Origin: Streptomyces sp. Z26
GTDB lineage: Bacteria; Actinomycetota; Actinomycetes; Streptomycetales; Streptomycetaceae
Assembly (NCBI RefSeq): GCF_003665095.1
Contig: NZ_RCHV01000002.1
Coordinates: 620,001 to 684,000, forward strand
DNA: 64,000 bases
Direction of reading: 5' to 3'
The notes under the pieces were generated by a model. It searched no databases. It had not been told where the DNA came from and worked only from the letters and a program-made list of their open reading frames with translations. The first letter of the stretch is position 1, and each line of letters opens with the position of its first letter. A program made the translations under genes and the position numbers. Of this stretch, positions 1 to 14,235 are shown in pieces.

Positions 1-602
1 CCGAGGACCGGGCGCTGCTCGCGCAGCTGCATCCCACCGCCCGCTGGGCGCGGGCGGGTTCGGCGGAGCTGGTACGGCTCGCCACGGCCGGGTTCGACGT
101 GGCGGCGGCCGCCGCGGCGCAGCACGTGTCGTGCGCGCGGCTGCCGCAGGACGCCGACGAGGCGGGCGTGACCACGGTCGTGTGGCGGCGGCGTCGGCCG
201 TTCCACCCGGGGCGGCTGTACGCCGCGCTGGAGGAGCTGGCGTGCGCGGGCGTACGCAGCCGGGGGCGGTTCTGGCTCGCGGACCGGCCGGACACGCTGC
301 TGTCCTGGGACGCCGCGGGCGGCGCGCTCGCCGTGGCCGCCGCCGGGCCGTGGCTGGCGGCGCTGCCCGAGGCCGCGTGGGAGCTGGTCGCCCCGGAACG
401 CCGCGTCGCCGCCGCCCTGGACTGGCACCTGCCGCACGGGGACCGCTGCCAGCACCTGGTCTTCACCTCCCCCGCCCTCGACCGGCGGGGGCTGGAGGAG
501 TTGCTGGACTCCTGCCTGCTGGACGACGCCGAGTACCTGGCGGGGCGCGACCGGTGGCGGCGGCTGCCCGACGCGTTCGACGGCCTGCTCGACCGCGTCT
601 GA
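1..602 (+). CDS. CobW/COG0523 GTPase, C-terminal part (5' truncated by window)
   Basis: Reading frame 3 is open from the first bases of the window to a TGA at 600-602, so the N-terminal GTPase domain lies upstream. The visible 199 residues match a CobW C-terminal domain: FHPGRLYAALEEL, then GRFWLADRP, then DTLLSWDAAG, and near the end LVFTSPALDRRGLEELLDSC. Family knowledge: COG0523 proteins are metallochaperone GTPases, and several are repressed by Zur and serve zinc allocation. The gene converges on a metal-type ABC transporter locus that has a Zur/Fur-like box, which fits a metal role. The metal itself cannot be read from this fragment. The start codon is not visible. Confidence 0.8.
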   Translation, partial: EDRALLAQLHPTARWARAGSAELVRLATAGFDVAAAAAAQHVSCARLPQDADEAGVTTVVWRRRRPFHPGRLYAALEELACAGVRSRGRFWLADRPDTLLSWDAAGGALAVAAAGPWLAALPEAAWELVAPERRVAAALDWHLPHGDRCQHLVFTSPALDRRGLEELLDSCLLDDAEYLAGRDRWRRLPDAFDGLLDRV

Positions 603-619
603 CGGCGCGCGGTACGCGT

Positions 620-650
620 GTGGGCGGGGGCTCGCTCGGCCCCCGCCCAC
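620..650. terminator. Bidirectional hairpin terminator
   Basis: A perfect 12-bp stem, GTGGGCGGGGGC paired with GCCCCCGCCCAC around a 7-nt loop, sits between the convergent CobW-type gene and the binding-protein gene. There is no T-tract, as is usual for Streptomyces terminators. Inferred to stop transcription from both sides. Confidence 0.75.
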
Positions 651-677
651 GTACGACGGCTCCCCCGACACGGCCGC

Positions 678-1721
678 TCAGCGCGGCAGTTCGCGCAGGT
701 ACGCGCCGAACTTCTCCAGTCCGTCGATGTTGCGCGGCCCGCTGATGCCCTCGTTGTAGTCGAGGACGAAGAAGCGGTTCCGCTTCACGGCGGGCAGCTC
801 CCGCGTGTGCGCGGACCTCTTCAGGAACTCGATCTTCTTCTTCGCGGGCTGGTCCCCGTAGTCGAGGATGATGACGACCTCCGGCTCCGCCTCCGCGACG
901 GACTCCCAGTTGACCTGGGTCCAGCGCTCGTCGAGACCGGCGAAGACGTTCCGGCCGCCCGCCGCCTCGATGATGTCGTTCGGCGGGACCTGCTTCCCGG
1001 CGGTGAACGGCCGGTCGGTGCCGGAGTCGTAGAGGAAGACCGGTACGCGCGGGCCGTCCGGCGCCTTCTCCCGTACGGTCGCCGCGCGCCGCTTGAGGTC
1101 CCGTACCACCTCGTCGGCCTTCCGCTCGACGTGGAAGATGGCGCCGAGGCGTTCGAGGTCGGTGTAGAGGGCCTTGAACGGGGTCTGCCGCTCCGGGTGC
1201 CCGGGGTAGTTGTAGCAGCTCTCGGTGTGGAGGAAGCTCTGGATGCCGAGCTTGTCGAGGATCTCGGGGGTGATGCCCCGCTGGTCGCTGAAGCCGGAGT
1301 TCCAGCCCGCGACGACGAGGTCGGCGCGGGCGTCCACGACGAGTTCCTTGTTGAGCAGGTCGTCGCTGAGCATCTTCACCCGGGCGTAGTCGGCGGCCCA
1401 GGGCGATTCGCTGACGGGCGGGTTGGCGGGCGGCATCACGTAGCCGTGCACGCGGTCGGCCAGGCCGAGGCTGAACAGCTTGTCGGCGCTGCCGCCCTCG
1501 TACGCGACGGCGCGTTCCGGTGTGCGGTACGGGACGGGTTCGCCGCACCGCTTCACGGTGGTGCGGTCCGGTTCGGCGGAGTCGGAGGTGACGTCCGCGC
1601 CGCAGCCGGTCAGCAGGAGCGCGGCCGCGAGGGCCGGGGCGAGCACGGCGTGCCGCGGTGTGCGGGGCAGCGGTCCACGGGACGGTGCTCCGCGGGAGAG
1701 GTTTCTACGGGTCACGCGCAT
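678..1721 (-). CDS. ABC transporter substrate-binding lipoprotein (siderophore/metal type)
   Basis: A 347-residue exported lipoprotein: a basic N-terminus, a hydrophobic stretch at about 25-37, and the lipobox LLTGC with lipidated Cys40. The mature part has features of the Fe3+-siderophore/vitamin B12 binding fold (PF01497), such as DLVVAGWNSGFSDQ and PEVVIILDYG near the C-terminus. It should capture a metal chelate outside the membrane and pass it to the FecCD permease. The start is ATG at 1719-1721, overlapping the 3' end of the ATPase gene by 10 nt, so the two are translationally coupled. It is the last gene of a minus-strand run of six. The chelate is unknown; the context suggests the product of the adjacent PLP, DUF364 and kinase genes. 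Confidence 0.85.
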   Translation of the reverse strand: MRVTRRNLSRGAPSRGPLPRTPRHAVLAPALAAALLLTGCGADVTSDSAEPDRTTVKRCGEPVPYRTPERAVAYEGGSADKLFSLGLADRVHGYVMPPANPPVSESPWAADYARVKMLSDDLLNKELVVDARADLVVAGWNSGFSDQRGITPEILDKLGIQSFLHTESCYNYPGHPERQTPFKALYTDLERLGAIFHVERKADEVVRDLKRRAATVREKAPDGPRVPVFLYDSGTDRPFTAGKQVPPNDIIEAAGGRNVFAGLDERWTQVNWESVAEAEPEVVIILDYGDQPAKKKIEFLKRSAHTRELPAVKRNRFFVLDYNEGISGPRNIDGLEKFGAYLRELPR

Positions 1722-2566
1722 GGTGAGGTGGTGCCTTTCTGTTCGGGTGGGTCCGGCGACGGGTCGGGCTCCGGCGCGACGGCGCGGGCCGCCGCGTCCG
1801 GCGCGCCCAGCGCGTAGAGCAGCTGCGGGCCGCCGGTGAGCGGGTGCGTGACGACGCTCGCCGCGACGCCGAACACCTCCCGCACCAGCTCCGCCGTCAG
1901 CACCTCCGCCGGGGTGCCCGCGGCCACCAGTCGGCCGTGGGCGAGGACGCCGAGGCGGTCGCAGGCAGCGGCGGCCAGGTTGAGGTCGTGCAGCACGACG
2001 AGCACGGTCAGGCCCGACTCCCGCAGCAGGGAGAGGAGTTCGACCTGGTGGCGTACGTCGAGGTGGTTCGTCGGCTCGTCCAGCACGAGCACGTCCGGCT
2101 CCTGGACGAGCGCGCGGGCGGCGAGCACCCGCTGCCGTTCGCCGCCGGAGAGGGTGAGGACGCCGCGGTGGGCGAGGTGGCCTATGTCGAGCCGTTCCAT
2201 CGCCCGCGCGCAGAGGGCGTGTTCGCGCGCGCTGAGGGGTTGGTTGCCGCGCAGGTACGGGGCGCGGCCGAGGGCGACGACCTCCTCGACGGTGAAGTCC
2301 AGGTCGACGCCGCCGTCCTGGGTGAGGGCGGCCACGGACCGGGCGGTACGGCGCAGGGGCAGCCCGGCCAGGTCGTCGCCGTCGAGGCGTACGGTGCCGG
2401 AGGCGGGGCGCAGCGCGCGGTAGACGCAGCGCAGCGCGGTGGACTTGCCGCTGCCGTTGGGGCCGACGAGGCCGACGACCCGGCCGCTGGGCACGTCCAG
2501 GGACAGGTCCCGTACGAGGGTCGCGCCGTCGGTCACGACGGTGAGCGCGTCGAGGGTCAGCTCCAC
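1712..2566 (-). CDS. ABC transporter ATP-binding protein (FecE/FhuC type)
   Basis: A 284-residue ABC ATPase with Walker A GPNGSGKST at residues 35-43, signature LSGGERQR at 139-146, Walker B VLVLDEPTNHLD at 159-170 and the H-loop in VLHDLNLAA. The closest family type is the iron-siderophore/B12 importer ATPase that pairs with FecCD permeases. It powers uptake with the adjacent permease and lipoprotein. The start is GTG at 2564-2566, 66 nt after the permease stop, and the end overlaps the lipoprotein start. The C-terminal tail of about 30 residues is Ala/Pro/Asp rich and probably non-conserved. Confidence 0.9.
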   Translation of the reverse strand: MELTLDALTVVTDGATLVRDLSLDVPSGRVVGLVGPNGSGKSTALRCVYRALRPASGTVRLDGDDLAGLPLRRTARSVAALTQDGGVDLDFTVEEVVALGRAPYLRGNQPLSAREHALCARAMERLDIGHLAHRGVLTLSGGERQRVLAARALVQEPDVLVLDEPTNHLDVRHQVELLSLLRESGLTVLVVLHDLNLAAAACDRLGVLAHGRLVAAGTPAEVLTAELVREVFGVAASVVTHPLTGGPQLLYALGAPDAAARAVAPEPDPSPDPPEQKGTTSPCA

Positions 2567-2632
2567 GGCTGCCGCCCCTCCGCCGTACCGGCGCGCGGTG
2601 CGTTCACCACGTGCCTCCCAGTCGTACTCATC

Positions 2633-3763
2633 TCAACGACCTCCGAACAGGTAGCTCCTGCGGCGCATCAGGGCGATGAAGACCGGTACGCCGACGAGTG
2701 CGGTGAGGACGCCCAGCGGCAGTTCGCGGGGCGCGGCGAGGGTGCGGGCGCCCAGGTCGACCCAGACCATGAAGACCGCCCCGGCCAGCGGCGCGACGGC
2801 CAGTACGCGGGCGTGCGCCGCGCCCACCGCCATCCGGACGAGGTGCGGCATGACCAGCCCGACGAACGCGATGGCGCCGCTCACCGCGACCATCACGCCC
2901 GTCATGAGGGAGACCACCAGCAGCAACGCGCGGCGCTGCCGGTCGGGGGCGACGCCGAGGCTGGCGGCGGTCTCGTCGCCGAGGGCCAGTACGTCCAGCG
3001 CCCTGCCGTACCGGTGCAGCACCACCAGCCCCAGCAGCACCACCACGGCGACGAGCGGCAGCGCGCCCCAACTGGCGGCGCCGAAGCTGCCCATCGTCCA
3101 GTACAGGACCGTGCTGGTCGCCTCGCCGTCCGGCGCCGTGTAGACGATCACGCTCATCAGGGCCTGGAAGCCGAGCGACAGCGCGACGCCCGTCAGCACG
3201 AGCCGCAGCGGGGAGAGCACGCCGCGCGTGCTGGCGGCGGCGTACACGAGGACCGACGCGGCGAGCGCCCCCGCGAACGCGCCCGCCGACACCGCGTGCA
3301 CGCCGAACGCGGCGAGCCCTCCGGTGACGGTCACGCCGACGGCGCCGACCGACGCGCCCGAGGAGACGCCGAGGACGAACGGGTCGGCCAGCGCGTTCCG
3401 TACGAGCGCCTGCACCGCGACGCCGACCGCGCTCAGGCCCGCCCCGACGAGTGCGGCGAGGAGGACGCGCGGGGTGCGGATCTGCCACACGATCTGGTAC
3501 GTGGTCGTCTCGTCGGCCCCGATCCGGCCGCCGGTGACGGCCGCCCACAGGTAGCGGGCGGTGTCACCGGGCGCGACGGACGCCGGGCCCAGGCCGACGG
3601 CCACCACGACGGACAGCAGCAGCAGCGCCAGCAGGGCGGCGCAGGTGAGGGCGAGCCCGGCGCGGGTGGCGAGGAGACGTACGGGGGCGGCCGGGCCGAC
3701 TCCCCCGCGGGGCACGGGAGTCGGGTCCGCGCGCCCGCCCGCCGGGGGCGCCGCCGCGGTCAC
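2633..3763 (-). CDS. FecCD-family ABC transporter permease
   Basis: A 376-residue polytopic membrane protein. The middle and C-terminal parts carry FecCD hallmarks: ALVRNALADPFVLGVSSGAS, then GAIAFVGLVMPHLVR (the loop that docks the ATPase), and RELPLGVLTALVGVPVF near the end. FecCD permeases transport Fe-siderophores, haem, B12 or other metal chelates. I start it at GTG 3761-3763, which overlaps the TGA of the upstream MFS gene (GTGA arrangement). The open frame extends much further upstream but inside the MFS gene in another frame, so it is rejected there. Translational coupling to the exporter gene is a strong hint that export and re-import belong to one system. Confidence 0.88.
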   Translation of the reverse strand: MTAAAPPAGGRADPTPVPRGGVGPAAPVRLLATRAGLALTCAALLALLLLSVVVAVGLGPASVAPGDTARYLWAAVTGGRIGADETTTYQIVWQIRTPRVLLAALVGAGLSAVGVAVQALVRNALADPFVLGVSSGASVGAVGVTVTGGLAAFGVHAVSAGAFAGALAASVLVYAAASTRGVLSPLRLVLTGVALSLGFQALMSVIVYTAPDGEATSTVLYWTMGSFGAASWGALPLVAVVVLLGLVVLHRYGRALDVLALGDETAASLGVAPDRQRRALLLVVSLMTGVMVAVSGAIAFVGLVMPHLVRMAVGAAHARVLAVAPLAGAVFMVWVDLGARTLAAPRELPLGVLTALVGVPVFIALMRRRSYLFGGR

Positions 3764-5139
3764 GCCTCCCCCTCGGCGGCGGCACCCGTACGGTCGTCCG
3801 GGCCCGGGGCCGTACGGGACACCGGTACGGCGGCCACCAGCGCGGCGACGACGAGCGTGCCGAACACCAGGGCCGTGCCCGGGTACCCGGCCAGGCCGAG
3901 CCCCGCCCCGCCGAGCGCCGCGCCGACGAACACGCCGAGGCTCATGCCCGCCGCGTTGACGCTCAGGGCCGCCCCCCGGCGGTCGCCGCTGCGCCGCACG
4001 ATGAGGCTCACCACGCAGGCGGCCACCACCGCGTGGCTGGCCGCGTGGAGCGACACGAGCGCGAGGGCGAGCGGCAGCCAGTGCGTGAAGTAGAACCCGG
4101 CGACGGACACCAGGGCGGCGACCAGCCCGAGGACGAGCAGCCGCTCGGTGCCGACGCGGGGTCGGGCGGCGTTGGTGAGCCGGCCGGTCAGCAGGTTGCT
4201 CACGAAGAACGAGCCGCCGCTGAGCGTCCACACGAAGGCGAAGGCGCCGGGGGCGAGGTCGAAACGGTCGTCGCAGAAGGCCGCCAGGTACGCGAGGTAG
4301 CCCATGAAGACCGCCGTCCGCAGCAGCGCGATGAGCAACAGCGGGACGACGCCGGGGAGTTGGCCGAGGGCGCGGAAGGACGCGAGGTAGCCGAGCCGCG
4401 TCCCGCCCTCCGCCTCGTCCCCGGCGACGTCCGCGTCCCCCGTACGGTCCCGGCCCCCCGTACGGTCCCGGTCCGCCGTACGGTCGCCGTCGCCCGTACG
4501 CCTGCCCCGCGCCGCGAACACGGCCGCCAGCAGCAGCGAACCGGCCGCCACCGCGAGCAGGTCGCCCTGCCAGCCCCAGAACGCGGCGGGCAGCGCCACG
4601 ACGGGCGCGGCGAGCATCGCCGTCATGGACTGCGTCGCCGTGACGAGCGTCGCCGCCCGTCCGGCAGCGTTCCCCGACCCGTAGCGGTCGGCGGCGGCGG
4701 CCGTCAGCGCCGGGTTCAGCACGGCCGTACCGGCGCCGACCAGCAGGCAGAACGCCGCCAGCAGCACGAACTCCCCGCTCGCGCCGAGCGCCGACGCGCC
4801 GCCGAGCACGGCGAGCCCGCCCGCCGCCGCCCACTCCCGGGGGACCCGGTCGAGGAACGGCGCCAGCGCCGTACCGACCAGCAGCGCCGCCAGCCCGCCC
4901 AGCCCGCGCAGCCCGCCCATCGCGGCGACGCCGCTCCCGGCGCCGTCCGCGATGGGCACCAGGTACGTGCTGAAGACGGTGAACGGGAGCAGCCCCACCG
5001 CGGAGGCCAGCAGCACCGGCCACAGCGCGCGGGCCATCCGCAGGTCGCCGGGCGGCGCCTCCTCGTCCGCGCCCGCCTCGCGTACGTCCGTCGCCTTCCC
5101 CGTGCCCGTACCGGCGCCCGTGCCCGTACCGGTGCTCAC
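3760..5139 (-). CDS. MFS transporter, probable metallophore exporter
   Basis: A 459-residue protein with about 12 hydrophobic segments in two halves, separated by a charged loop at about residue 210 made of repeated R-T-G-D/A-D motifs. It is a major facilitator superfamily protein. Start GTG at 5137-5139 overlaps the stop of the DUF364 gene (GTGA), and its own stop overlaps the permease start, so it is embedded in the operon. Known siderophore and opine-metallophore loci place an MFS exporter in just this position, so I infer export of the locus product. The N-terminus is a low-complexity Gly/Thr repeat, and the cytoplasmic loop is encoded by a degenerate GTACGGTCC-type repeat (about 4440-4500). 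Confidence 0.75.
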   Translation of the reverse strand: MSTGTGTGAGTGTGKATDVREAGADEEAPPGDLRMARALWPVLLASAVGLLPFTVFSTYLVPIADGAGSGVAAMGGLRGLGGLAALLVGTALAPFLDRVPREWAAAGGLAVLGGASALGASGEFVLLAAFCLLVGAGTAVLNPALTAAAADRYGSGNAAGRAATLVTATQSMTAMLAAPVVALPAAFWGWQGDLLAVAAGSLLLAAVFAARGRRTGDGDRTADRDRTGGRDRTGDADVAGDEAEGGTRLGYLASFRALGQLPGVVPLLLIALLRTAVFMGYLAYLAAFCDDRFDLAPGAFAFVWTLSGGSFFVSNLLTGRLTNAARPRVGTERLLVLGLVAALVSVAGFYFTHWLPLALALVSLHAASHAVVAACVVSLIVRRSGDRRGAALSVNAAGMSLGVFVGAALGGAGLGLAGYPGTALVFGTLVVAALVAAVPVSRTAPGPDDRTGAAAEGEA

Positions 5140-5993
5140 GCGGCCCCCCGCGCCGCGCGGTACTGGTACAGGTACGTCTGCTCGGCGCTGAACTGCGAGA
5201 ACGGGAACGGCTCCGCGTTCAGCGCCGTCACCCCCGAACCCAGGAACGCGCGGGCGACGGCCGCCCCGGTCTGCGCGTACACCAGCAGCGGTACGCCCTG
5301 CTCGCGGCAGTGCCCGAGGATCAGGTCGAACGTGCCGTTCCCCAGGGTCATCCCCGTCGCCACGACGGCGTCGGCCTCCCGCAGCACCTCGGTCATGTCG
5401 TCGGTGACCGTGTCGCCCCACTGCGTGGTGCGGAGGTTGAGGTCGCACGGCAGACAGACGCCGCCGCGCTCCCGTACGGCCGCCACCAGCGGGTTGACGA
5501 CCCCGACCAGCGCGACGCGCGCGCCGGGGCGGATGTCCAGCAGGTCGACGATGGCGGCGTCGCGGGCCCGCGCGCGTACCTCCGGGGTGCCCGCGGGCAG
5601 CGCGACGGGGCGCGCTTCGGCGGCGTCGCGGTGCGGGCGTACGTGGTCGAGGTACGCGTCGAGCGCGGCGACCCGTACGGGCGCGGACTCGTGGCGCAGG
5701 AGCGAGCCGAGGGTGTGGCCGGAGGCGTCGGCGCAGACGTCCGGGACGAGTTCGCCCGCCTCGAAGGAGCAGGCGCCGAAGGAGCCGCCGACGCGGAGCA
5801 GCAGGTAGTGGTTGTGGTAGGTCGCCGTGCCACCGGCGAGGCGGGTGGTGTGGTAGAGCCAGAAGGCGCTGGTGACGGAGAGTCCGTCGGGGTCGGGGCC
5901 GTACGCGCCGGAACGTACGGCGGCGGTCAACTCGTCGACGCTCAGAGGCGGTTCGGCCGTCAGGGTACGGGCCGTGGCTTCGGGGGCGGGCAT
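5136..5993 (-). CDS. DUF4213/DUF364 Rossmann-like protein (putative heavy-metal chelation family)
   Basis: A 285-residue protein. The N-terminal half (about 20-130) resembles the enolase-N-like DUF4213 domain, and the C-terminal half has a Rossmann-like core: RPGARVALVGVVNPLVAAV, ADAVVATGMTLGNGTFDLIL, then VPLLVYAQTG. This matches DUF364 (PF04016), named 'putative heavy-metal chelation domain' from structural work; no enzymatic reaction is established as far as I know. ATG at 5991-5993 follows the PLP gene by 79 nt, and the stop overlaps the MFS start. Location inside a metal-transport operon supports a part in making or loading a chelator, but that is inference. Confidence 0.75.
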   Translation of the reverse strand: MPAPEATARTLTAEPPLSVDELTAAVRSGAYGPDPDGLSVTSAFWLYHTTRLAGGTATYHNHYLLLRVGGSFGACSFEAGELVPDVCADASGHTLGSLLRHESAPVRVAALDAYLDHVRPHRDAAEARPVALPAGTPEVRARARDAAIVDLLDIRPGARVALVGVVNPLVAAVRERGGVCLPCDLNLRTTQWGDTVTDDMTEVLREADAVVATGMTLGNGTFDLILGHCREQGVPLLVYAQTGAAVARAFLGSGVTALNAEPFPFSQFSAEQTYLYQYRAARGAA

Positions 5994-6072
5994 GTCGTGT
6001 GCTCTTTCCGTGAGTCGGGACGTCGGGGTCGGGGTCGGGGCCGGTGCGGGTTCGGTGGCCGGGTGGCGCGCG

Positions 6073-7116
6073 TCAGCCGTCGGTGCCGGTCGCGGTGGCC
6101 GCGGCGGGTCGTCCGGCGGCCCGGGGGTCCACGTCGGGCCAGCGGGCGGTGGACCACGGGTGCCGCAACTCCCGTAGCGACGCGACCTCGTGGGGCGCGA
6201 GCGTGTCGAGGTCGGGGGCCCGCCCGTGGTGCGCGTAGGCGCTGTCGACGTAGCGGTGGCCGGTGTCGGCCGCGACGAAGACGTGTACGCGGGAGTCGTC
6301 GCGGCGCAGCTCCCAACGGGCCGCGAGATGGGCGGCGCCGGTGGACAGTCCGGCGAAGATGCCGCTGTCGCGCAGGAGTCGGACGGCGCCGGAGAGGGCG
6401 CAGTCGAAGTTGACCCAGTGGACGCGGTCGTACAGCTCGTGCCGTACGTTCCCGAACTCGATCGCGCTGCCGATCCCCGCGATGATCATGTCCGGGTCCG
6501 CCACGTGCTCCGACCCGAACGTGACGCTGCCGAAGGGCTGTACGCCCACCAGCGCCACGTCCCGCCCCGCCTCCCGCAGGTAACCGGCGAGCGCCCCGGT
6601 CGACGCGCCCGAGCCGACCCCGCCGACGAGCGTCAGCGGCTGCCCGTACGGCAGTTCGCGGTCGAGAGTGCGGGCGACCTCGCGGTAGCCGTAGCGGTGG
6701 ATGCCGTCGTGGTACTGGCGCATCCAGTGGTACGTCGGGTGCTCCGCGAGGATCTCCGCGATCCGGCGTACGCGCGCCTCCTGGTCGAGCCGCAGGTCCT
6801 GTGACGGCGCGACCTGTTCGAGGGTGGCGCCGAGGATCTCCAACTGCACGCGCAGCGTGCGGTCGACGGTCGTGGAGCCGACGATGTGGCACTTCATGCC
6901 GTAGCGGTGGCAGGCGAGGGCGAGGGCGTGCGCGTAGATGCCGCTGGAGCTGTCGACGAGGGTGTCGCCGGGGCGTACGGCGCCGGTGTCGAGCAGGTGC
7001 CGTACGGCGCCCAGCGCGGACCAGACCTTCATCGTCTCGAACCGCAGACAGACCAGGTCGGGCCGCAGGGCGACGAGCGCGGGCCGCTTCACGGCCTCGG
7101 CTATGTGCGTGTGCAT
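6073..7116 (-). CDS. PLP-dependent cysteine-synthase-family enzyme, divergent
   Basis: A 347-residue fold-type II PLP enzyme. The expected Schiff-base lysine is Lys30 in RFETMKVWSALG, a clear departure from the usual PxxSxKDR motif of cysteine synthases. The substrate-loop equivalent is DSSSGIYAHALALA at 55-68, and the phosphate-binding glycine loop is GGVGSGAST at 165-173. Such enzymes carry out beta-replacement on O-acetyl- or O-phospho-serine; SbnA uses O-phosphoserine and glutamate in diaminopropionate formation. It begins with ATG at 7114-7116, is divergent from the GHMP kinase, and leads the six-gene minus-strand operon. A natural inference is that the kinase makes its phosphorylated substrate. 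Product unknown. Confidence 0.8.
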   Translation of the reverse strand: MHTHIAEAVKRPALVALRPDLVCLRFETMKVWSALGAVRHLLDTGAVRPGDTLVDSSSGIYAHALALACHRYGMKCHIVGSTTVDRTLRVQLEILGATLEQVAPSQDLRLDQEARVRRIAEILAEHPTYHWMRQYHDGIHRYGYREVARTLDRELPYGQPLTLVGGVGSGASTGALAGYLREAGRDVALVGVQPFGSVTFGSEHVADPDMIIAGIGSAIEFGNVRHELYDRVHWVNFDCALSGAVRLLRDSGIFAGLSTGAAHLAARWELRRDDSRVHVFVAADTGHRYVDSAYAHHGRAPDLDTLAPHEVASLRELRHPWSTARWPDVDPRAAGRPAAATATGTDG

Positions 7117-7322
7117 GTGTCTTCCCGTCCGTCTCCGCGTCAGACCGCTGCTCTGCGGCGGTGGCGCCGGCACTGGCACCGGCGGGACCGGTCGGTGGCG
7201 CGCGGTGGGGCGTGGTCGTGCACGGGTTCTCCTCAGGACGGGGCGGGAAGGGGGCGGCGGCGCGAGAGGGGCCGAGGGAAAGGGCGCGGCTCGGGCTTGC
7301 CTCGGGCAGCGTAGCCTAGATA

Positions 7323-7339
7323 GAAATGATTATCACTTC
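7323..7339. promoter_or_regulatory. Zur/Fur-like operator between PLP enzyme and GHMP kinase genes
   Basis: GAAATGATTATCACTTC is an imperfect 17-bp palindrome with a perfect core TGAT-T-ATCA and outer GAA/TTC arms. It is close to Fur-superfamily boxes; the AATGATTATCA core matches the Streptomyces Zur consensus as I remember it (about AAATGATTTTCA). It ends 21 nt before the kinase GTG, so it would overlap the transcription start region. It is one of the few A/T-rich stretches in this area. The iron-type DmdR1 box is different and not seen. Confidence 0.6.
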
Positions 7340-7360
7340 AATCTGGGAGAGAGGGATCAC

Positions 7361-8377
7361 GTGCAGCTGGCCACGGAGACCGGACGCGGACTCGCCTCAC
7401 GGCACGCGTCGGCGGGCGCGACACCGGACACGGGAACGGGAACGAACACGGGCGCGGGAACGGGCACCACCGCGGGCCACGGCACGGGAACCGGCTCGGG
7501 AGTCGGCTCCGCCTTCGGCACCTTCGGCGAACTGCTCCAGGGCGAACTCCCCGAGCAGGACGGGGACTTCCTGGTGACCCTGCCCATCGCCCGCTGGACG
7601 ATGGCGGCCTTCCACTGGGACCCCGAAGCCGGTGAACTGGCCGTACGCCCCGCGCACAAGACGAAGGCCCTGCGCCTCGCCCGCATGATCCTGGCCGAGG
7701 AACGGCTGCCCGCCGCGGGAGTGCTCACCGTCAGCAGCGTCATCCCGGAGGGCAAGGGCCTGGCCAGCTCCTCGGCCGACCTCGTCGCCACCGCGCGCGC
7801 GGTGGGCCACGCGCTGGGCACCCCGATGCCCGCCGCGCGCGTCGAACGGCTCCTCGCCCGCGTCGAACCCACCGACGGCGTGCTCTACCCGGCGGTCGTC
7901 GCGTTCCACCACCGTTCCGTACGCCTGCGGTCCGTCCTCGGCAGGCTGCCCGCGATGGGCGTCGTCGGGATCGACGAGGGCGGCGCGGTCGACACGGTCG
8001 CGTTCAACCGCCTCCCGAAGCCGTACACCCGGGCCGACCGCCACGAGTACGCGCACCTGCTGGACCGCCTCGCCACCGCCGTCCGCACCCGCGACCTCGC
8101 GGAGGTGGGACGCGTCGCGACACGGAGCGCGCTGAAGAACCAACTCCTGCGCCACAAAGCCGCGTTGGACCCGATGCGCCGCATCTGCCGCGAGGTCGGC
8201 GGCCTGGGCGTGGCCGTCGGCCACAGCGGTACGACGCTGGGCGTCCTCCTCGACGCGAACGACCCGTCGTACCCCCACCGCGCCACGGCGGCAGCCCAGG
8301 CGTGCGCGGAGCTGACCCCGGCGACGACACCGGGCGGCGGCCCGACCCTCTACCGCACCCTGACGTTCACCAGCTGA
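7361..8377 (+). CDS. GHMP kinase, PduX-like (amino-acid kinase candidate)
   Basis: A 338-residue GHMP kinase. The family signatures are FGTFGELLQG near residue 52 (as in L-threonine kinase PduX), the ATP-loop PEGKGLASSSADLVA near 128-142, and a C-terminal GVAVGHSGTTLGVLLD. PduX phosphorylates L-threonine for cobalamin; homologues elsewhere act on other small hydroxyl compounds. No cobalamin genes are nearby, and the divergent partner is a PLP beta-replacement-type enzyme, so I infer an O-phospho-amino-acid step in metallophore synthesis. Start GTG 7361 is chosen because GGGAGAGAGGG lies about 6 nt upstream. Residues 20-50 are a Gly/Thr low-complexity insert. Confidence 0.75.
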   Translation: MQLATETGRGLASRHASAGATPDTGTGTNTGAGTGTTAGHGTGTGSGVGSAFGTFGELLQGELPEQDGDFLVTLPIARWTMAAFHWDPEAGELAVRPAHKTKALRLARMILAEERLPAAGVLTVSSVIPEGKGLASSSADLVATARAVGHALGTPMPAARVERLLARVEPTDGVLYPAVVAFHHRSVRLRSVLGRLPAMGVVGIDEGGAVDTVAFNRLPKPYTRADRHEYAHLLDRLATAVRTRDLAEVGRVATRSALKNQLLRHKAALDPMRRICREVGGLGVAVGHSGTTLGVLLDANDPSYPHRATAAAQACAELTPATTPGGGPTLYRTLTFTS

Positions 8378-8527
8378 CCCCGCACGCCTGTCCCCACACG
8401 AGAGAGTCCGAGCCGTCCTGCCCTGCGCCGTATTCCCGCCCCCGACCAGCCTGTTGCCGCACCTTCTCCGTATGAGAGCCTCAGGGGCGTTCGACTCGCA
8501 GCCACACCTCGACAACAAGGAGTGACA

Positions 8528-8944
8528 ATGGCCCACGGGGGACATCGGTGGCGGCTCACAGTGCCGACCGACGACGACTCGCTGAGGCAGGAGCGGCTGA
8601 CCTGGAACCTGCATGACAGGTTGCGGGAGGCCGAGGGTGTCTCCGTCACGTTCGCCGATGAAGACCGACCCTCGAGTCCCGGACACAAGGGCGGAGGCGT
8701 CGGAGAGGTCGCGCTCTGGGCCGCTACGACCGCCGCTGTCGCCCGCCCGGCGTCGCAGGTCCTGATCACTCTGATCACCGAGTGGTGCGCCAAGGAGCGC
8801 CACCGCCAGGTCGAGGTCACCGTCGAGAACGCCTCCGTCACGATCACCGGCCGACCTGACGAGGCCCAGGAGCGGATGGTCCGGGAGTTCCTGGACCGGG
8901 TGGAGGGCGACGAGAACGGCCAGTCGGGGGCAGACCCCGAGTGA
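8528..8944 (+). CDS. Effector-associated constant component EACC1
   Basis: A 138-residue protein. It has the EACC1 layout: a short beta-rich start (WRLTVPTDDD), a middle helical stretch with small residues (GEVALWAATTAAVARPASQVLITLITEWC) and a C-terminal VEVTVENASVTITGRPDEAQERMVREFL. EACC1 was defined by comparative genomics (Aravind group) as a constant partner of variable effector/NTPase conflict modules in actinobacteria and similar bacteria. AAGGAG lies 5 nt before ATG 8528. The stop overlaps the GTG of the caspase-helicase gene (GTGA), so the two proteins should be made together. Its molecular role is unknown; it is thought to link sensor and effector. Confidence 0.85.
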   Translation: MAHGGHRWRLTVPTDDDSLRQERLTWNLHDRLREAEGVSVTFADEDRPSSPGHKGGGVGEVALWAATTAAVARPASQVLITLITEWCAKERHRQVEVTVENASVTITGRPDEAQERMVREFLDRVEGDENGQSGADPE

Positions 8945-11900
8945 CCCGGCTGACCAAACGCTGTGCTCTGCTGATCGGCACCGAGCACTACGACGACGGC
9001 GGTTTCCATCCGCTGCCCTGCACACGGGCGGACGTGTGGGGCATGCGTCAGGTCTTGCAGCACCGCAGCATCGGCGGCTTCGGCCTCATTCAGACCGAGA
9101 CCGATCTGACAGCGGACGACATGCAGCAGGCCATCAGCGAGTTCCTGTCGGATCGCAAGCCGGACGAACTGGCACTGGTGTACATATCCGGGCACGGCAA
9201 ACGGGACGACGGCGAGTTCCGCTTCGTGGCCAAGGACACCGAGTACGCCAGGACCGCGGAGACGGGCGTAAGCGCCGGCTACGTCAATGAGCGGCTGGAG
9301 GAGTGCGTCGCTCCTCAGAAGATCGTGATGATCGACTGCTGTCGCAGCGGTGGTTTCGCCATCGGACTGCGTACCTCACACCGCAATACCTCCGAACCGA
9401 TCGCGAAGTCCGGCGAGTCGGCCCCACTGACCAGCAGGGGAGTCTACGTACTGTCCTCCTCCCGGGCGGGCGAGCTCTCATTCGGCGGCACGGTCACGGA
9501 GACGGAGGTGCAACCGTCCGTCTTCACGACCGAGGTCATCGAGGCCCTGCGTACAGGGAAGGTCAGCAAGGACAGCGGCGGCAGCGTGACCGTGTCCGAC
9601 CTCTTCCACTACGTCAACCGACGCATGCGCGCCCAGGGCGCCAACCAGATCCCCGTGCACTCCGCGCTCGGCGTGGACGACCGCATCGTGATCGCGGACT
9701 CGCCGCTGGGCAGCGCTCCGGTGCTCGTCCCGGTGAGCGGACGCCCCGCGCCGCCGCGAACCACGGGCCCCGCGCCCGCCGCGACCCCCAAGTCGGGCGA
9801 CTCGCAACCGACATGGACCGACCTCCTCGACTACTACCGCGACTGCGTCCTCTCCGACGACACCGAGACGCCGCTGCTGGAGGTACGCGTCGACAGTCCT
9901 TCGTACGCGTGCCTGTCCGGAGCGGAAAGGTTGCTCACCGGCGAGGTGGAGGACGACGGGTGCGTGGCTGTTCCCCCGGAAGCGGACTCTCTCGTTCAAT
10001 CAGCCACTGCTCAGAACGCCGAACTCTGGGCGGGTTACCCGGCCGTCGTCCTGACCGGGCCACGCGGTCGACGCCCGTGGCGGCATCCCCGGTTCGCGCC
10101 GCTGCTGATCCGCCGGGTCGAGATCGTACGGGAGGACGGCGCGGCACGGCTCAAACCGTACGGGCCGGTGCAGCCGCATCCGCAGTTGGCCAGGGACTGG
10201 TTGGGTGACGAGGAGGCCGCACAACTCGCGGAGACCTACCAGCCCACCTGGCACCGCGGGCAGCACGAACGTATGGCAGTCGACGTGGGCAACCTCCTCA
10301 CCCAGGAGTTCGAGCTGCCCTGCGTGCAGGAACTCCGGCCAGACGAACTCGCCGGCCCCATCGACATCCATACACCGGGCCATGGCGCGCGGAACACGGC
10401 GGTGCTCTTCACCGCCCTACCCGAGACCGCCTTCACCAAGCAGTTACTCAAGGACTTCGCGGACATCGCGAAGATGACCGAACGGATACCGGAGACAGCA
10501 CTCGCCGCCCTAGCGCCGGACGCGTCGGAACGCGGCCACGCGCATGCTTTGGCAGACCCCGCACCCGGCTCTGTGGTCACCCCGCTGTCCTGCAACGAAG
10601 CGCAGGCCGAGGTCCTGCGTTCCGCGCTGACGCGCCGCCTGACCGTGGCCACCGGTCCGCCCGGCACCGGCAAGAGCCAACTGGTCGCCAATCTCGTGGC
10701 CAGTGCAGTCGCCGCCGGCCAGACCGTGCTCGTGGCCTCCACCAACAACGATGCCGTGGACGAGGTCTGGCGACGATGCGAGAGTCTGGTCCCCGGTAGC
10801 GTGGTGCGCACCGGCTCGTCGAATTACGCCGAGCAGGAAGCGGGCGCCCTGCACACCCTGCGCACAATGTCGGCGGCGGCCTCCAACGTGACCACGGCGG
10901 CCATGGACCTCGGCATCGCGTCCGACCGGCTGGCCCGCGTACGCGTGGATCACGCCAGGGCTGCCGGGACGGAGCGGGCACTGCGCGAGGCGGGTGCGGC
11001 ACGAGAACAGAGCGCCGAACAGCTGGGGCAGTCCGTCGCAGGACTCCTGGACCTGCTGGACAGCGCCACCCGACGCGGCCGCCTCCGGCGACCCGCTAAG
11101 CCCGGCCGCCTCGCAGGCACAGCACGCAAGCTCGCCCACAGACATTTTCTCGGGCAGTGGTCGCGCAACCGCTTCCTCCGACGGACCGGCCTCGGCGCCT
11201 ACGAGGGCGACACGGTCGACGGCTGTCTCGCACTCGCGGAATTCCTGGCCGCGCGGGAGACCTGGGACCGCCTGCACCCGCAGGCGGCGGGCGTGGACGA
11301 CGTCGTACTGACCACGGCGCTCCGCGACGCGGAGAGCGCGGTGCGGAGTGCGTCGGGTCGGCTCCTGGACAGCTCGGTACGCACCCACGCACGCAACGGT
11401 CGTCAGCGCATCCTCGCCCTGCTGCGTGCCCGGGACGACGGCCGGACCAGCGACTGGTCAGCGCTCCGCGACGTCCTCGGGAGAGCCCACGGACGGAAGG
11501 AGGCTCCCGCAGTGGCGGGCTGGGCCGTGACGAGCCTGTCCGCACGGCGCTTTCCCCGAGATCCCGCGCTCTTCGACCTCGTCGTGATCGACGAGGCGAG
11601 CCAGTGCGCCATACCGCACGTCGTGCCCCTGCTGTTTCGGGCAAGGCGCGCGCTGGTCATCGGCGACGCCATGCAGTTGACGCACATCGTCAAGACCGGT
11701 CCGGAGCATGAGGCACTCATTCGGCGGCGCACCGGGTTGCGAGCGGACTGGTTGGAGAAGCACCGTCTCGCCTACCGGCGGCACTCCGCCTTCCACGCGG
11801 CCGAACGATCCGCCGGAGGGACGCTCCTGCTCGACGAACACTTCCGCTGCCATCCTGACATCGCGGCCGTCTCCAACGAGCTCTTCTACGACGGCGAACT

Positions 11901-12714
11901 GACCGTACTCACGGACACCCGCGTACGGCCTTCTCTGAACCGCCCCGCCCTCATCTGGTCCCACGTCCCGGGTAAGGCCGGTCGACCCCGGCACGGCAGT
12001 TCCTGGGTGAACGACGACGAGATCCGGAAGGTGAACGCCAGTGTGCGCTACCTGCTGGAGCAGTTGCCCGACGAGGCGACCATCGGCATCGTCACGCCCT
12101 TCAAAGCGCAGGCGGACGCGCTCCGCGAGCAGTTGGGCCACTACGACCAGGAACGTCTGCGCGTCGGCACCGTGCACACCTTTCAGGGTGGCGAGCGCGA
12201 CGTCATGGTGTTCTCGTTGGTCGCGGCGGACGGGATGCACCCGGGGGCGGTCAGCTGGGTGTCCCGGCAGGTCAATCTCTGGAACGTCGCCATCACCCGG
12301 GCTCGTACCCACCTCATCGTGGTGGGCGACCGTGAGCGGTGGAGTCGGCAGGAGGGGACGGCCTCCGCACTGCTGGAAGCCGCGACGGCAGGTGCTCCCC
12401 GTTCCGGTGCGGCCGACGGCGACGAGCTGACCAAGCGTCTCTACCAGCGCTTGGCGGGCGACCCGTCAACGACCGTCGTGCTCGGGGAAAATGTGGCCGG
12501 ACACCCGGTGGATGCCCTACTCAAGGACGCTGACGGCGCCGCGCGCGGCGCCGTGCTGCTCGACCATGGGGTGGGGGAGCACGGGGACGCGGCCCGTCAC
12601 CTGCGGCTGATGCTGCATCGGAGAACGCTCCTGGACGACGGCCCGCGGGGACTCGCAGCCACGCGCTGTCCGGCCTGGAGGCTGTACGACACCGGGCCGG
12701 CTGACGATCTGTGA
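8941..12714 (+). CDS. EACC1-associated caspase fused to superfamily 1 helicase
   Basis: A 1257-residue multidomain protein. Residues about 5-265 form a caspase-like (C14) peptidase with catalytic His85 in YISGHGKRD and Cys134 in IDCCRSGG. A linker of about 300 residues follows. Residues about 550-1140 are an Upf1/Dna2-type SF1 helicase: Walker A GPPGTGKS at 572-579, motif II DEASQC at 884-889, GDAMQL, then HTFQGGERDVMVFSL and WNVAITRARTHLIVVGD. The last about 80 residues (VLLDHGVGEHGDAARHLR ... PAWRLYD) look like a small nuclease-fold tail. Likely the helicase senses foreign or damaged nucleic acid and unleashes the protease. A TTA codon (codon 502, 10444-10446) suggests bldA-dependent translation. 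Codon use is less biased than in the flanks. Confidence 0.85.
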   Translation: MTRLTKRCALLIGTEHYDDGGFHPLPCTRADVWGMRQVLQHRSIGGFGLIQTETDLTADDMQQAISEFLSDRKPDELALVYISGHGKRDDGEFRFVAKDTEYARTAETGVSAGYVNERLEECVAPQKIVMIDCCRSGGFAIGLRTSHRNTSEPIAKSGESAPLTSRGVYVLSSSRAGELSFGGTVTETEVQPSVFTTEVIEALRTGKVSKDSGGSVTVSDLFHYVNRRMRAQGANQIPVHSALGVDDRIVIADSPLGSAPVLVPVSGRPAPPRTTGPAPAATPKSGDSQPTWTDLLDYYRDCVLSDDTETPLLEVRVDSPSYACLSGAERLLTGEVEDDGCVAVPPEADSLVQSATAQNAELWAGYPAVVLTGPRGRRPWRHPRFAPLLIRRVEIVREDGAARLKPYGPVQPHPQLARDWLGDEEAAQLAETYQPTWHRGQHERMAVDVGNLLTQEFELPCVQELRPDELAGPIDIHTPGHGARNTAVLFTALPETAFTKQLLKDFADIAKMTERIPETALAALAPDASERGHAHALADPAPGSVVTPLSCNEAQAEVLRSALTRRLTVATGPPGTGKSQLVANLVASAVAAGQTVLVASTNNDAVDEVWRRCESLVPGSVVRTGSSNYAEQEAGALHTLRTMSAAASNVTTAAMDLGIASDRLARVRVDHARAAGTERALREAGAAREQSAEQLGQSVAGLLDLLDSATRRGRLRRPAKPGRLAGTARKLAHRHFLGQWSRNRFLRRTGLGAYEGDTVDGCLALAEFLAARETWDRLHPQAAGVDDVVLTTALRDAESAVRSASGRLLDSSVRTHARNGRQRILALLRARDDGRTSDWSALRDVLGRAHGRKEAPAVAGWAVTSLSARRFPRDPALFDLVVIDEASQCAIPHVVPLLFRARRALVIGDAMQLTHIVKTGPEHEALIRRRTGLRADWLEKHRLAYRRHSAFHAAERSAGGTLLLDEHFRCHPDIAAVSNELFYDGELTVLTDTRVRPSLNRPALIWSHVPGKAGRPRHGSSWVNDDEIRKVNASVRYLLEQLPDEATIGIVTPFKAQADALREQLGHYDQERLRVGTVHTFQGGERDVMVFSLVAADGMHPGAVSWVSRQVNLWNVAITRARTHLIVVGDRERWSRQEGTASALLEAATAGAPRSGAADGDELTKRLYQRLAGDPSTTVVLGENVAGHPVDALLKDADGAARGAVLLDHGVGEHGDAARHLRLMLHRRTLLDDGPRGLAATRCPAWRLYDTGPADDL

Positions 12715-12792
12715 GCCGCATGCTGGACCCCCGTCCCCGGTCCCCCGGGCCCGGTTCCGGGGCCGCGCCCGGCGGGGATACGGTCGGTGGTC

Positions 12793-13686
12793 ATGGACTG
12801 GCTCGAACGTGCCGCGCGGTTGAAGCAGTGGACCCGGGGCGGCGTACGCGCGCCGCACAAGCCGCTGTTGCTGCTCTACGCCCTCGGCCGGTACCAGCGG
12901 GACGCGGAGGGCGAGCTGCGCTACAGCGCGGTGGAGGGGGAGCTTCAGCGGCTGCTCGACGAGTACGGGCCGCCGCACCGTACGACGCCCGCGTACCCCT
13001 TCCACCACCTCGTCAGCGACGGCGTGTGGGAGGTGCGCAGCGACCGTGGCCCCGGGAGCCCGGGGACGGGCCTCCGCGACCTGCGGGAGTCCGGGGCGAC
13101 CGGTCGGCTGGCGCCGGATCTGCGGGACGCGTTGCGGCGCGAGCCGGAGTTGCTGCCGCGGATGGCGCGGTCGCTGCTCGACCTGCACTTCCCGCCGTCG
13201 TGCCACGGCGAGTTGTGCGAGGTCGTCGGCCTGGACCTCGACCCGGTGGAGTACGTGGCGCTGTCCCCCGCCCAGCGGCAGCGGGATCGGCGGATGCGGG
13301 ACCTGGTGCTGGCCGCGTACGCGTACCGGTGCGCGTTCTGCGGCTACGACGGCCGCCTCGACACGGTGCCGGTCGGGCTGGAGGCGGCGCACGTGCGGTG
13401 GTGGGCCCTCGACGGGCCGGACGAGGTGGAGAACGGGCTGTGCCTGTGCTCCCTCCACCACAAGCTGTTCGACAAGGGCGTCCTCGGCCTCGACGACGAC
13501 CTGCGGGTGCTCGTGTCGCAGCGTTTCGCCGGGCGGGGCGCCGCCGCCCGCGACCAGGTGGAGGCGCTGGCCGGACGGCCGGTCCTCGGTCCCGTGCCGG
13601 GCGCGCTGCCCGTCGCGGCGGAGTACCGCGCGTGGCACGCCGTACAGGTCTTCCGTGGCGCGGCGCGCGCCACCGCACCGGCCTGA
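12793..13686 (+). CDS. Phosphorothioate-DNA-binding HNH restriction endonuclease (type IV, ScoMcrA-like)
   Basis: A 297-residue protein. The N-terminal part resembles the sulfur-binding domain of ScoMcrA-type enzymes: RAPHKPLLLLYALGRYQ near 16-32 and YPFHHLVSDGVWEV near 70-85. The C-terminal part is an HNH nuclease: CAFCGY zinc knuckle, LEAAHVRWWALDGPD, then NGLCLCSLHHKLFDKGVL. Family role: cleavage of DNA bearing phosphorothioate (Dnd) modification, that is, type IV restriction. I start at ATG 12793; a GTG 6 nt upstream is possible. It follows the caspase-helicase gene by about 80 nt on the same strand and precedes another EACC1 gene, so it is part of the same defence island. No dnd genes are present here. 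Confidence 0.82.
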   Translation: MDWLERAARLKQWTRGGVRAPHKPLLLLYALGRYQRDAEGELRYSAVEGELQRLLDEYGPPHRTTPAYPFHHLVSDGVWEVRSDRGPGSPGTGLRDLRESGATGRLAPDLRDALRREPELLPRMARSLLDLHFPPSCHGELCEVVGLDLDPVEYVALSPAQRQRDRRMRDLVLAAYAYRCAFCGYDGRLDTVPVGLEAAHVRWWALDGPDEVENGLCLCSLHHKLFDKGVLGLDDDLRVLVSQRFAGRGAAARDQVEALAGRPVLGPVPGALPVAAEYRAWHAVQVFRGAARATAPA

Positions 13687-13788
13687 CCGGCGGCACCCGC
13701 CCGCGGCCCCCGTGACGCGCCGCTCGGTGGCGGACGCGCGTGTCCGGCTCCCCGTGTCGCGGGCGGCCGGTGACTACCGTGGTGCGGC

Positions 13789-14235
13789 ATGGAAGGTGAG
13801 CACGAGGTCGAGCCCGTCCGTATCCGTATCGAGCTGTCCGGGCCCGGGGACGTGGGCGAGGACACCCGCGACCTCTGCGCGTGGCTGCGCCGGACGCTCA
13901 ACTCCCGCGAGCACGCGAGCGTACGGCTCCTGCCGGACCCGACCGGCGGGGCCGATCCGACCGACGGGGCCGCGGCGGACGCCCGTACGGAGGCGGACGG
14001 GGCGGCGTACGGGCCGGTGGAGGGCATCGACCTGGCGCTGGGCCACGGTTTCGCCGCCCTCAACCTCGCCATGTCGTACGCGTCCTGGCGCGCCGCCCGG
14101 CCCACCTCCCCCGCCGTGACGCTGACCGGCCGCCACGGGTCCGTCACCGTGCACGACGGTTCGGCCGAGGACATCCGCCGGATCGTCACCGCGCTGGAGG
14201 GGAACGCTGCCACCGGAGGCGGCCACCGCCCCTGA
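13789..14235 (+). CDS. Second EACC1 protein
   Basis: A 148-residue protein with the EACC1 plan: VRIRIELSGPGDVGEDTRDLC at the start, a loop rich in Asp/Ala/Gly, ALGHGFAALNLAMSYASWR in the middle and a C-terminal VTLTGRHGSVTVHDGSAEDI strand-turn-helix. It is clearly different in sequence from the EACC1 at 8528. ATG 13789 lies about 100 nt after the HNH nuclease stop. No protease or NTPase effector directly follows (a terminator does), so its partner could be the caspase-helicase or the nuclease, or it may be an orphan left by loss of an effector. The link is inferred from position only. Confidence 0.75.
   Translation: MEGEHEVEPVRIRIELSGPGDVGEDTRDLCAWLRRTLNSREHASVRLLPDPTGGADPTDGAAADARTEADGAAYGPVEGIDLALGHGFAALNLAMSYASWRAARPTSPAVTLTGRHGSVTVHDGSAEDIRRIVTALEGNAATGGGHRP

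Follow-up and report, generated by a model that had tools for sequence, protein, structure and literature searches.

To our knowledge, few routes to zincophores that do without non-ribosomal peptide synthetases (NRPS) have been described, namely those to ethylenediamine disuccinate (EDDS) and to the opine type. Opine metallophores such as staphylopine and pseudopaline are small, amino-acid-based molecules that are exported by a major facilitator superfamily (MFS) transporter and imported by an ATP-binding cassette (ABC) system. The aes genes for EDDS presumably encode SbnA-like, SbnB-like and argininosuccinate-lyase-like enzymes. The [S,S]-EDDS zincophore of Amycolatopsis japonicum is under the control of Zur and depends on neither NRPS nor NRPS-independent siderophore (NIS) synthetases (PMC4993170, PMC6103462). 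In the assembly of the siderophore staphyloferrin B, serine is phosphorylated by SbnI, a ParB-type protein (PMC12704722), and SbnA, a pyridoxal phosphate (PLP) enzyme, uses O-phosphoserine in a beta-replacement with glutamate, SbnI being redundant with central serine synthesis (PMC12414870). A gene cluster at one end of a 64,000-nucleotide stretch of the Streptomyces sp. Z26 genome, hereafter the window (positions 620001-684000 of a 6.49-Mb contig, in a genome of 6.50 Mb and three contigs), is here set beside these systems. It is likely to be a Zur-controlled, non-NRPS metallophore cluster, which is well supported by the genes present, by their recurrence and by a promoter motif, and for which the chemistry is a reasoned proposal. 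The whole reading, in which a zincophore under Zur control is made without NRPS or NIS enzymes, exported and re-imported, is moderately probable.

The cluster consists of six minus-strand genes lying opposite a plus-strand gene for a GHMP kinase (7361..8377; Pfam GHMP_kinases N and C domains), proposed to act on free serine (or threonine). The two sides are separated by a 244-bp divergent promoter, bounded by the starts of the PLP enzyme gene (7116) and of the kinase gene (7361). From this promoter leftwards, the six genes encode an SbnA-like PLP enzyme, a proposed beta-replacement synthase (6073..7116; Pfam PALP, NCBIfam and profile matches); a DUF364 protein, proposed to complete the chelator (5136..5993; Pfam DUF364); an MFS transporter, the predicted exporter (3760..5139; Pfam MFS_1); and the three parts of an importer, these being a FecCD-type permease (2633..3763; Pfam FecCD, NCBIfam), an ABC transporter ATPase of the FecCD/BtuCD kind (1712..2566; Pfam ABC_tran, NCBIfam) and a substrate-binding lipoprotein (678..1721; Pfam Peripla_BP_2), for which the nearest solved chains are the unnamed periplasmic binding proteins 4n01 and 4mlz. 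All seven genes are present in the order given by a preliminary description of the window, and its suggestion of a non-NRPS metallophore-like system with genes for synthesis, export and uptake gains support from the same three lines of evidence. The GTGA and ATGA overlaps that it listed are found in part. Among the five junctions read from the sequence, 4-bp GTGA overlaps occur at two, where the MFS start lies inside the DUF364 stop and the FecCD start inside the MFS stop, and an ATGA overlap at none; the ATPase and lipoprotein genes overlap by 10 bp, and gaps of 79 bp and 66 bp separate PLP from DUF364 and FecCD from the ATPase, respectively. It had also noted the lack of NRPS, NIS synthetase and opine dehydrogenase genes, and indeed none of these domains is detected by Pfam in the nine locus proteins or in about 6 kb of flank to the left and to the right, the only parts of the genome in which they were sought.

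Comparison with staphyloferrin B reveals a common element in the pairing of a dedicated small-molecule kinase with an SbnA-like beta-replacement enzyme. The two systems differ in that the kinase here has a GHMP fold, as opposed to the ParB-type SbnI, in the presence of DUF364, in a Zur-like box where no iron box was found, and in the lack of any SbnB-type dehydrogenase or NIS gene among the Pfam hits of the cluster and flanks. With EDDS the cluster shares the absence of NRPS and NIS genes and Zur control, which is here predicted from the box. With the opine systems it would have in common a small amino-acid-based metallophore that leaves by an MFS protein and returns by an ABC importer. A further link to them is seen in a Kribbella relative of the cluster, of which the SBP_bac_5 protein resembles nickel, nickel-metallophore and opine binding proteins, but no opine dehydrogenase is among the Pfam hits of the cluster and flanks of the window. 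By the tests made, the cluster falls outside the staphyloferrin B, opine and F420-0 kinds, and it is proposed to combine staphyloferrin B-like first steps with the export and import cycle of a zincophore. The earlier claim of a layout unlike known systems therefore requires qualification: the first two steps resemble those of staphyloferrin B, whereas the GHMP kinase, the missing SbnB and NIS genes and the constant partnership with DUF364 set the cluster apart.

The same neighbourhood was sought across genomes, as the preliminary description had suggested, and the layout recurs. Scanning one genome per species (84,980 species) with the DUF364 protein, an approach that reaches close relatives only, gave 26 loci. 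Streptomyces accounts for 22 of them, strain WMMB 322 contributing two, and Actinophytocola, Kribbella, Nocardiopsis and Pseudonocardia have a single locus each. The PLP gene adjoins that for DUF364 in 24 of the 26 when judged by tblastn, and in both misses (L017 and L029) the DUF364 gene is less than 70 bp from a contig end. An MFS gene is present in every locus, resembling that of the window in 23 and being of another type in L031, L034 and L036. In 21 loci the FecCD gene is 70% identical or more, and L031 and L036 have a more distant one; as for the remaining exceptions, L032 ends early, L030 has none and L033 has a different importer. The kinase is nearby in 18 loci. In L011, L017, L023, L026 and L029 the contig ends about 1.2 kb or less upstream of the PLP or DUF364 gene, and in L030, L033 and L034 no kinase match was found by tblastn. 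This recurrence across the 26 loci argues against the arrangement having arisen by chance.

Relatives of the DUF364 protein were also found in 30 of 100 near genomes (counting the genome itself, and one weak, partial match in G083) and in 23 of 296 genomes of the class (again counting the genome itself, and a weak match in G137). Once G137 was left out (a partial match, E = 1.3e-5), 22 of the 23 class genomes were followed up, and the PLP gene adjoins DUF364 in all of them, as judged by comparing coordinates by eye. The kinase gene adjoins in 13 of the 16 close-type genomes, and adjoins DUF364 in none of the six distant-type genomes. Fourteen near genomes carry the 42-45% type, and the neighbourhoods of six of these were inspected.

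The composition of the loci around this pair is variable. The order DUF364-kinase-PLP on one strand is found in eight of the nine genomes of another family, f19, as well as in the Streptomyces genomes G162, G206, G289 and G342, and in some loci it is accompanied by a divergent MFS gene. A small methyltransferase-like gene stands beside DUF364 in all nine f19 loci and in one of those four Streptomyces loci. One is also seen directly before DUF364 in L034 (L034:9291-10013), and similar genes are neighbours of DUF364 or of PLP in further type-1 loci without the arrangement of the window. Two loci lacking a nearby kinase (the Kribbella locus L033, and L057) have an SBP_bac_5 binding protein, and the solved relatives of that in L033 include agrocinopine, nickel and nickel-metallophore binding proteins. 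A second type of locus, represented in other genomes by L046-L051 and L072-L077 and partly linked to Zur, comprises genes for an ATP-grasp ligase, DUF364, an SbnA-like PLP enzyme, an enolase-superfamily epimerase, an MFS transporter, an S-adenosylmethionine (SAM) methyltransferase and an SBP_bac_5 protein. The pairing of DUF364 with the PLP enzyme is not absolute, because a chimeric locus (L058:1686-10036) containing kinase, PLP, ATP-grasp, MFS, methyltransferase and FecCD importer genes has no DUF364 match; some 90 kb from it in its genome, G246, there is a further locus with the DUF364-PLP pair.

The divergent promoter of the window contains a Zur-like box, TAGAAATGATTATCA, at 7321..7335. 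The motif obtained by chromatin immunoprecipitation (ChIP) of Zur in S. coelicolor is tGaNNatSatNNtCa, with 11 fixed positions (PMC5472717). A divergent kinase/PLP pair exists in 16 of the 26 loci, giving, with the window, a test set of 17 promoters. Twelve of the 16 orthologous promoters carry TGACAATCATTTTCA, which agrees with the motif at all 11 fixed positions, while three with TGACAATCATTTCCA and one with TGACAATCGTTTTCA agree at 10 each. The best site in all 17 promoters is within two mismatches of TGAWAATSATTWTCA, and when each promoter was dinucleotide-shuffled 200 times, no shuffled copy equalled its match. Zur binding at the promoter box is a prediction for which the weight of evidence rests in the perfect orthologous sites. 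No iron box was found in the 17 promoters, all of which are 7-10 mismatches of 19 away from the iron box consensus. Where the preliminary description had left the metal unspecified, the conservation of the Zur-like box suggests that it is probably zinc rather than iron.

Across the whole genome, 30 sites lie within three mismatches of TGAWAATSATTWTCA, compared with three for a reversed control pattern. Four sites have two mismatches: the window box, a site where a ZnuA gene begins, another that precedes an ABC-3 permease gene by 15 bp, and a fourth at 3177640. The surroundings of 12 of the 30 sites were inspected, in addition to those of the window box; the sites with three mismatches include a second znuA box, one in a CobW/S18/P-loop gene group and one ahead of the CobW-like gene next to the window, and the remainder of those inspected are inside open frames or near genes with no visible link to zinc. 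The genome has four Fur-family genes, of which one, at 1657485, is in the znu region. Beyond the 17 divergent promoters, a site matching at least nine of the 11 fixed positions is present in the promoters of 16 of the other 19 type-1 loci (at least 10 in 11 of them) and of nine of the 12 type-2 loci (at least 10 in five), and L034 has an 11/11 site ahead of its importer genes. Single 9/11 sites are weak evidence, with stretches of the same locus reaching that score in 1-13% of draws, and the 10/11 site of L077 is equalled in 7% of draws from its own locus.

The NCBIfam model that best fits the PLP enzyme is SbnA (TIGR03945, 127.8 bits), which is again the top model for three relatives (149, 137.6 and, for one of type 2, 228 bits). 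When 112 solved sequences were searched with a profile of 11 family members, three of them of type 2, the three SbnA sequences scored best (145.0-148.7 bits), followed by a cysteine synthase (137.8) and CmnB (137.4). Lys47 of SbnA, which carries PLP (PMC12414870), aligns with a lysine invariant in the 11 family sequences, from which L022 was left out, and Tyr152 with an invariant tyrosine; Ser185, for which one of the three solved SbnA sequences has a different residue, aligns with a glycine. An SbnA-like action is proposed for the enzyme, which is not classed as a member of SbnA, and an enzyme of this kind together with a small-molecule kinase would most simply constitute a phospho-amino-acid route. 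The order of steps envisaged in the preliminary description, with the kinase producing an O-phospho amino acid in which the PLP enzyme replaces the phosphate, is supported.

The kinase passes the Pfam gathering scores for both of its domains (PF00288, 39.4 against 22.3 bits; PF08544, 25.9 against 21 bits) and shares 98% identity with a protein ascribed by its name to Streptomyces phytohabitans; one named for S. venezuelae is also among its matches. The glycine/serine stretch typical of GHMP kinases and an N-terminal GELLQG motif are invariant in 14 aligned kinases, and the structures matched best by its model (mean pLDDT 69.5) in Foldseek are of homoserine kinase, mevalonate kinase and mevalonate diphosphate decarboxylase. 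It is best read as a serine kinase of GHMP fold standing in for SbnI; serine is chosen as the substrate because SbnA uses serine phosphate, and because relatives without the kinase could draw O-phosphoserine from serine synthesis. The DUF364 protein likewise passes its gathering score (PF04016, 45.3 against 23 bits) and has the two-domain fold of the family, enolase-N-like and Rossmann-like. Set against the family as a whole (PF04016, including Dhaf4260, 3l5o), the DUF364 proteins found here are almost always paired with one and the same enzyme and in many cases with a kinase, and are accompanied by an exporter and the motif of a named metal regulator. No paper joining DUF364 with a metallophore was found in the open-licence literature, nor was such a cluster recognised among the open-licence matches listed, although work in subscription journals may exist.

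In the scheme that we infer, which extends to every reaction, the product, the metal, Zur binding and the directions of transport, zinc shortage would cause Zur to come off its box in the divergent promoter. The kinase would then make O-phospho-L-serine, the SbnA-like enzyme would replace the phosphate with a second amino acid, attached through its amino group, and DUF364 would complete a small amino-polycarboxylate chelator. This would be exported by the MFS protein, and the zinc complex returned by the importer formed by the lipoprotein, FecCD permease and ATPase. The existence of related loci without a kinase would be explained by O-phosphoserine also arising from ordinary serine synthesis.

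A number of observations weigh against this scheme. The box of the window is itself imperfect, matching nine of the 11 fixed positions, and no site of at least 9/11 is present in the promoter stretch tested in three of the 19 type-1 loci (L031, L034 and L036) and three of the 12 type-2 loci (L046, L047 and L073). The kinase is missing beside DUF364 in three close-type genomes (G246, G340 and G358). The score of the PLP enzyme with the SbnA model is far below the cut-off of 349.95 bits; the lead of SbnA over the next entry in the profile search is just 7-11 bits or so, with a profile that holds three type-2 sequences, themselves nearer to SbnA; and in a search with just the window protein, cysteine synthases (63.2 bits) outscore SbnA (53.5 bits). 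For each of the three parts of the importer the best NCBIfam model is one for F420-0 transport, and B12 models are listed too, though the scores are below the cut-offs (TIGR03868, 162.3 against 392.4; TIGR03869, 273 against 437.35; TIGR03873, 277.3 against 372.4 bits). Finally, relatives of the kinase are named as threonine rather than serine kinases, including 'L-threonine kinase' and 'threonine kinase in B12 biosynthesis'.

These names would suit a zincophore of different chemistry, in which a PduX-like threonine kinase feeds a PLP enzyme and DUF364 that build on a 2,3-diaminobutyrate unit, or in which DUF364 adds an arm using SAM or NAD. The use of a nucleoside cofactor would agree with the adenosyl-type pocket and methyltransferase-like topology proposed for DUF364 in 2010 (PMC2954201). 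However, the names are automatic, SbnA-like enzymes use O-phosphoserine (PMC12414870), and loci without the kinase could obtain O-phosphoserine, but not O-phosphothreonine, from ordinary metabolism, and this chemistry is accordingly considered unlikely. More doubtful still is that the genes respond to zinc without making a metallophore, the product being an amino acid derivative that is secreted when zinc is short, to signal or to inhibit, and the importer having another purpose. Export combined with small-molecule synthesis would look alike in that case, and Zur regulons also include genes that are not for uptake (PMC6103462); yet an importer with a binding protein, whether FecCD or SBP_bac_5, stays beside the synthesis genes in most loci, and Zur-controlled zincophore clusters are already known (PMC6103462). 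Salvage of a corrinoid or F420 precursor, for which the threonine kinase names, the CobW-like protein and the resemblance of the importer to BtuCDF and F420-0 systems could be cited, is very improbable given importer scores that all fall below curated cut-offs, the lack of any Rfam match in the window and hence of a cobalamin riboswitch at gathering score, the conserved Zur box and MFS gene, and the replacement of the binding protein by one of SBP_bac_5 type in some related loci.

The 3' part of a CobW/MRF-like gene occupies 1..602 on the plus strand, its start being 616 bp to the left of the window. The preliminary description saw in it a CobW-type metallochaperone; the gene is indeed there, but Pfam recognises only CobW_C in the whole protein (L002:14386-15603, reaching window position 602) and no cobW GTPase domain, and the best NCBIfam model is MRF, a ribosome-hibernation recruiter (208.5 bits, cut-off 375), followed by ZigA (155.9 bits, cut-off 600). 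A three-mismatch site ending 19 bp before the start codon of the CobW-like gene is weak, with 8/11 on the published motif. Divergent from this gene is a cation diffusion facilitator (CDF) gene (L002:13051-14190), possibly for a zinc exporter. In Streptomyces nanshensis (L015:1136-2748) a CobW-like gene (71% identical) is located about 5 kb from the kinase, and the same locus has a 9/11 Zur-like site upstream of short genes that, judged by eye, resemble ribosomal protein paralogues. On the other side of the cluster, window positions 8522-14235 encode a 1257-residue caspase and AAA_11/AAA_12 helicase protein, followed by HNH_2 and EACC1 proteins, and look like a conflict or defence locus.

The variation between loci suggests a broader proposition, which is plausible but falls a little short of probable: that DUF364 and the SbnA-like PLP enzyme supply the core catalysis, as a fixed pair, for a class of actinobacterial zincophores under Zur control that has gone unrecognised, with DUF364 closing the chelator and with an exchangeable front end (GHMP kinase, ATP-grasp ligase or neither), methyltransferases and importer. 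Cluster calling that relies on NRPS or NIS genes would probably miss such a cluster, since it has no marker gene of this sort. Small zinc chelators, for example aspergillomarasmine A, are of practical interest (PMC8319579). If the proposition is true, the modular swapping around the DUF364-PLP pair would give rise to a family of different small chelators, and a first function would be assigned to DUF364, a widespread family of unknown function.

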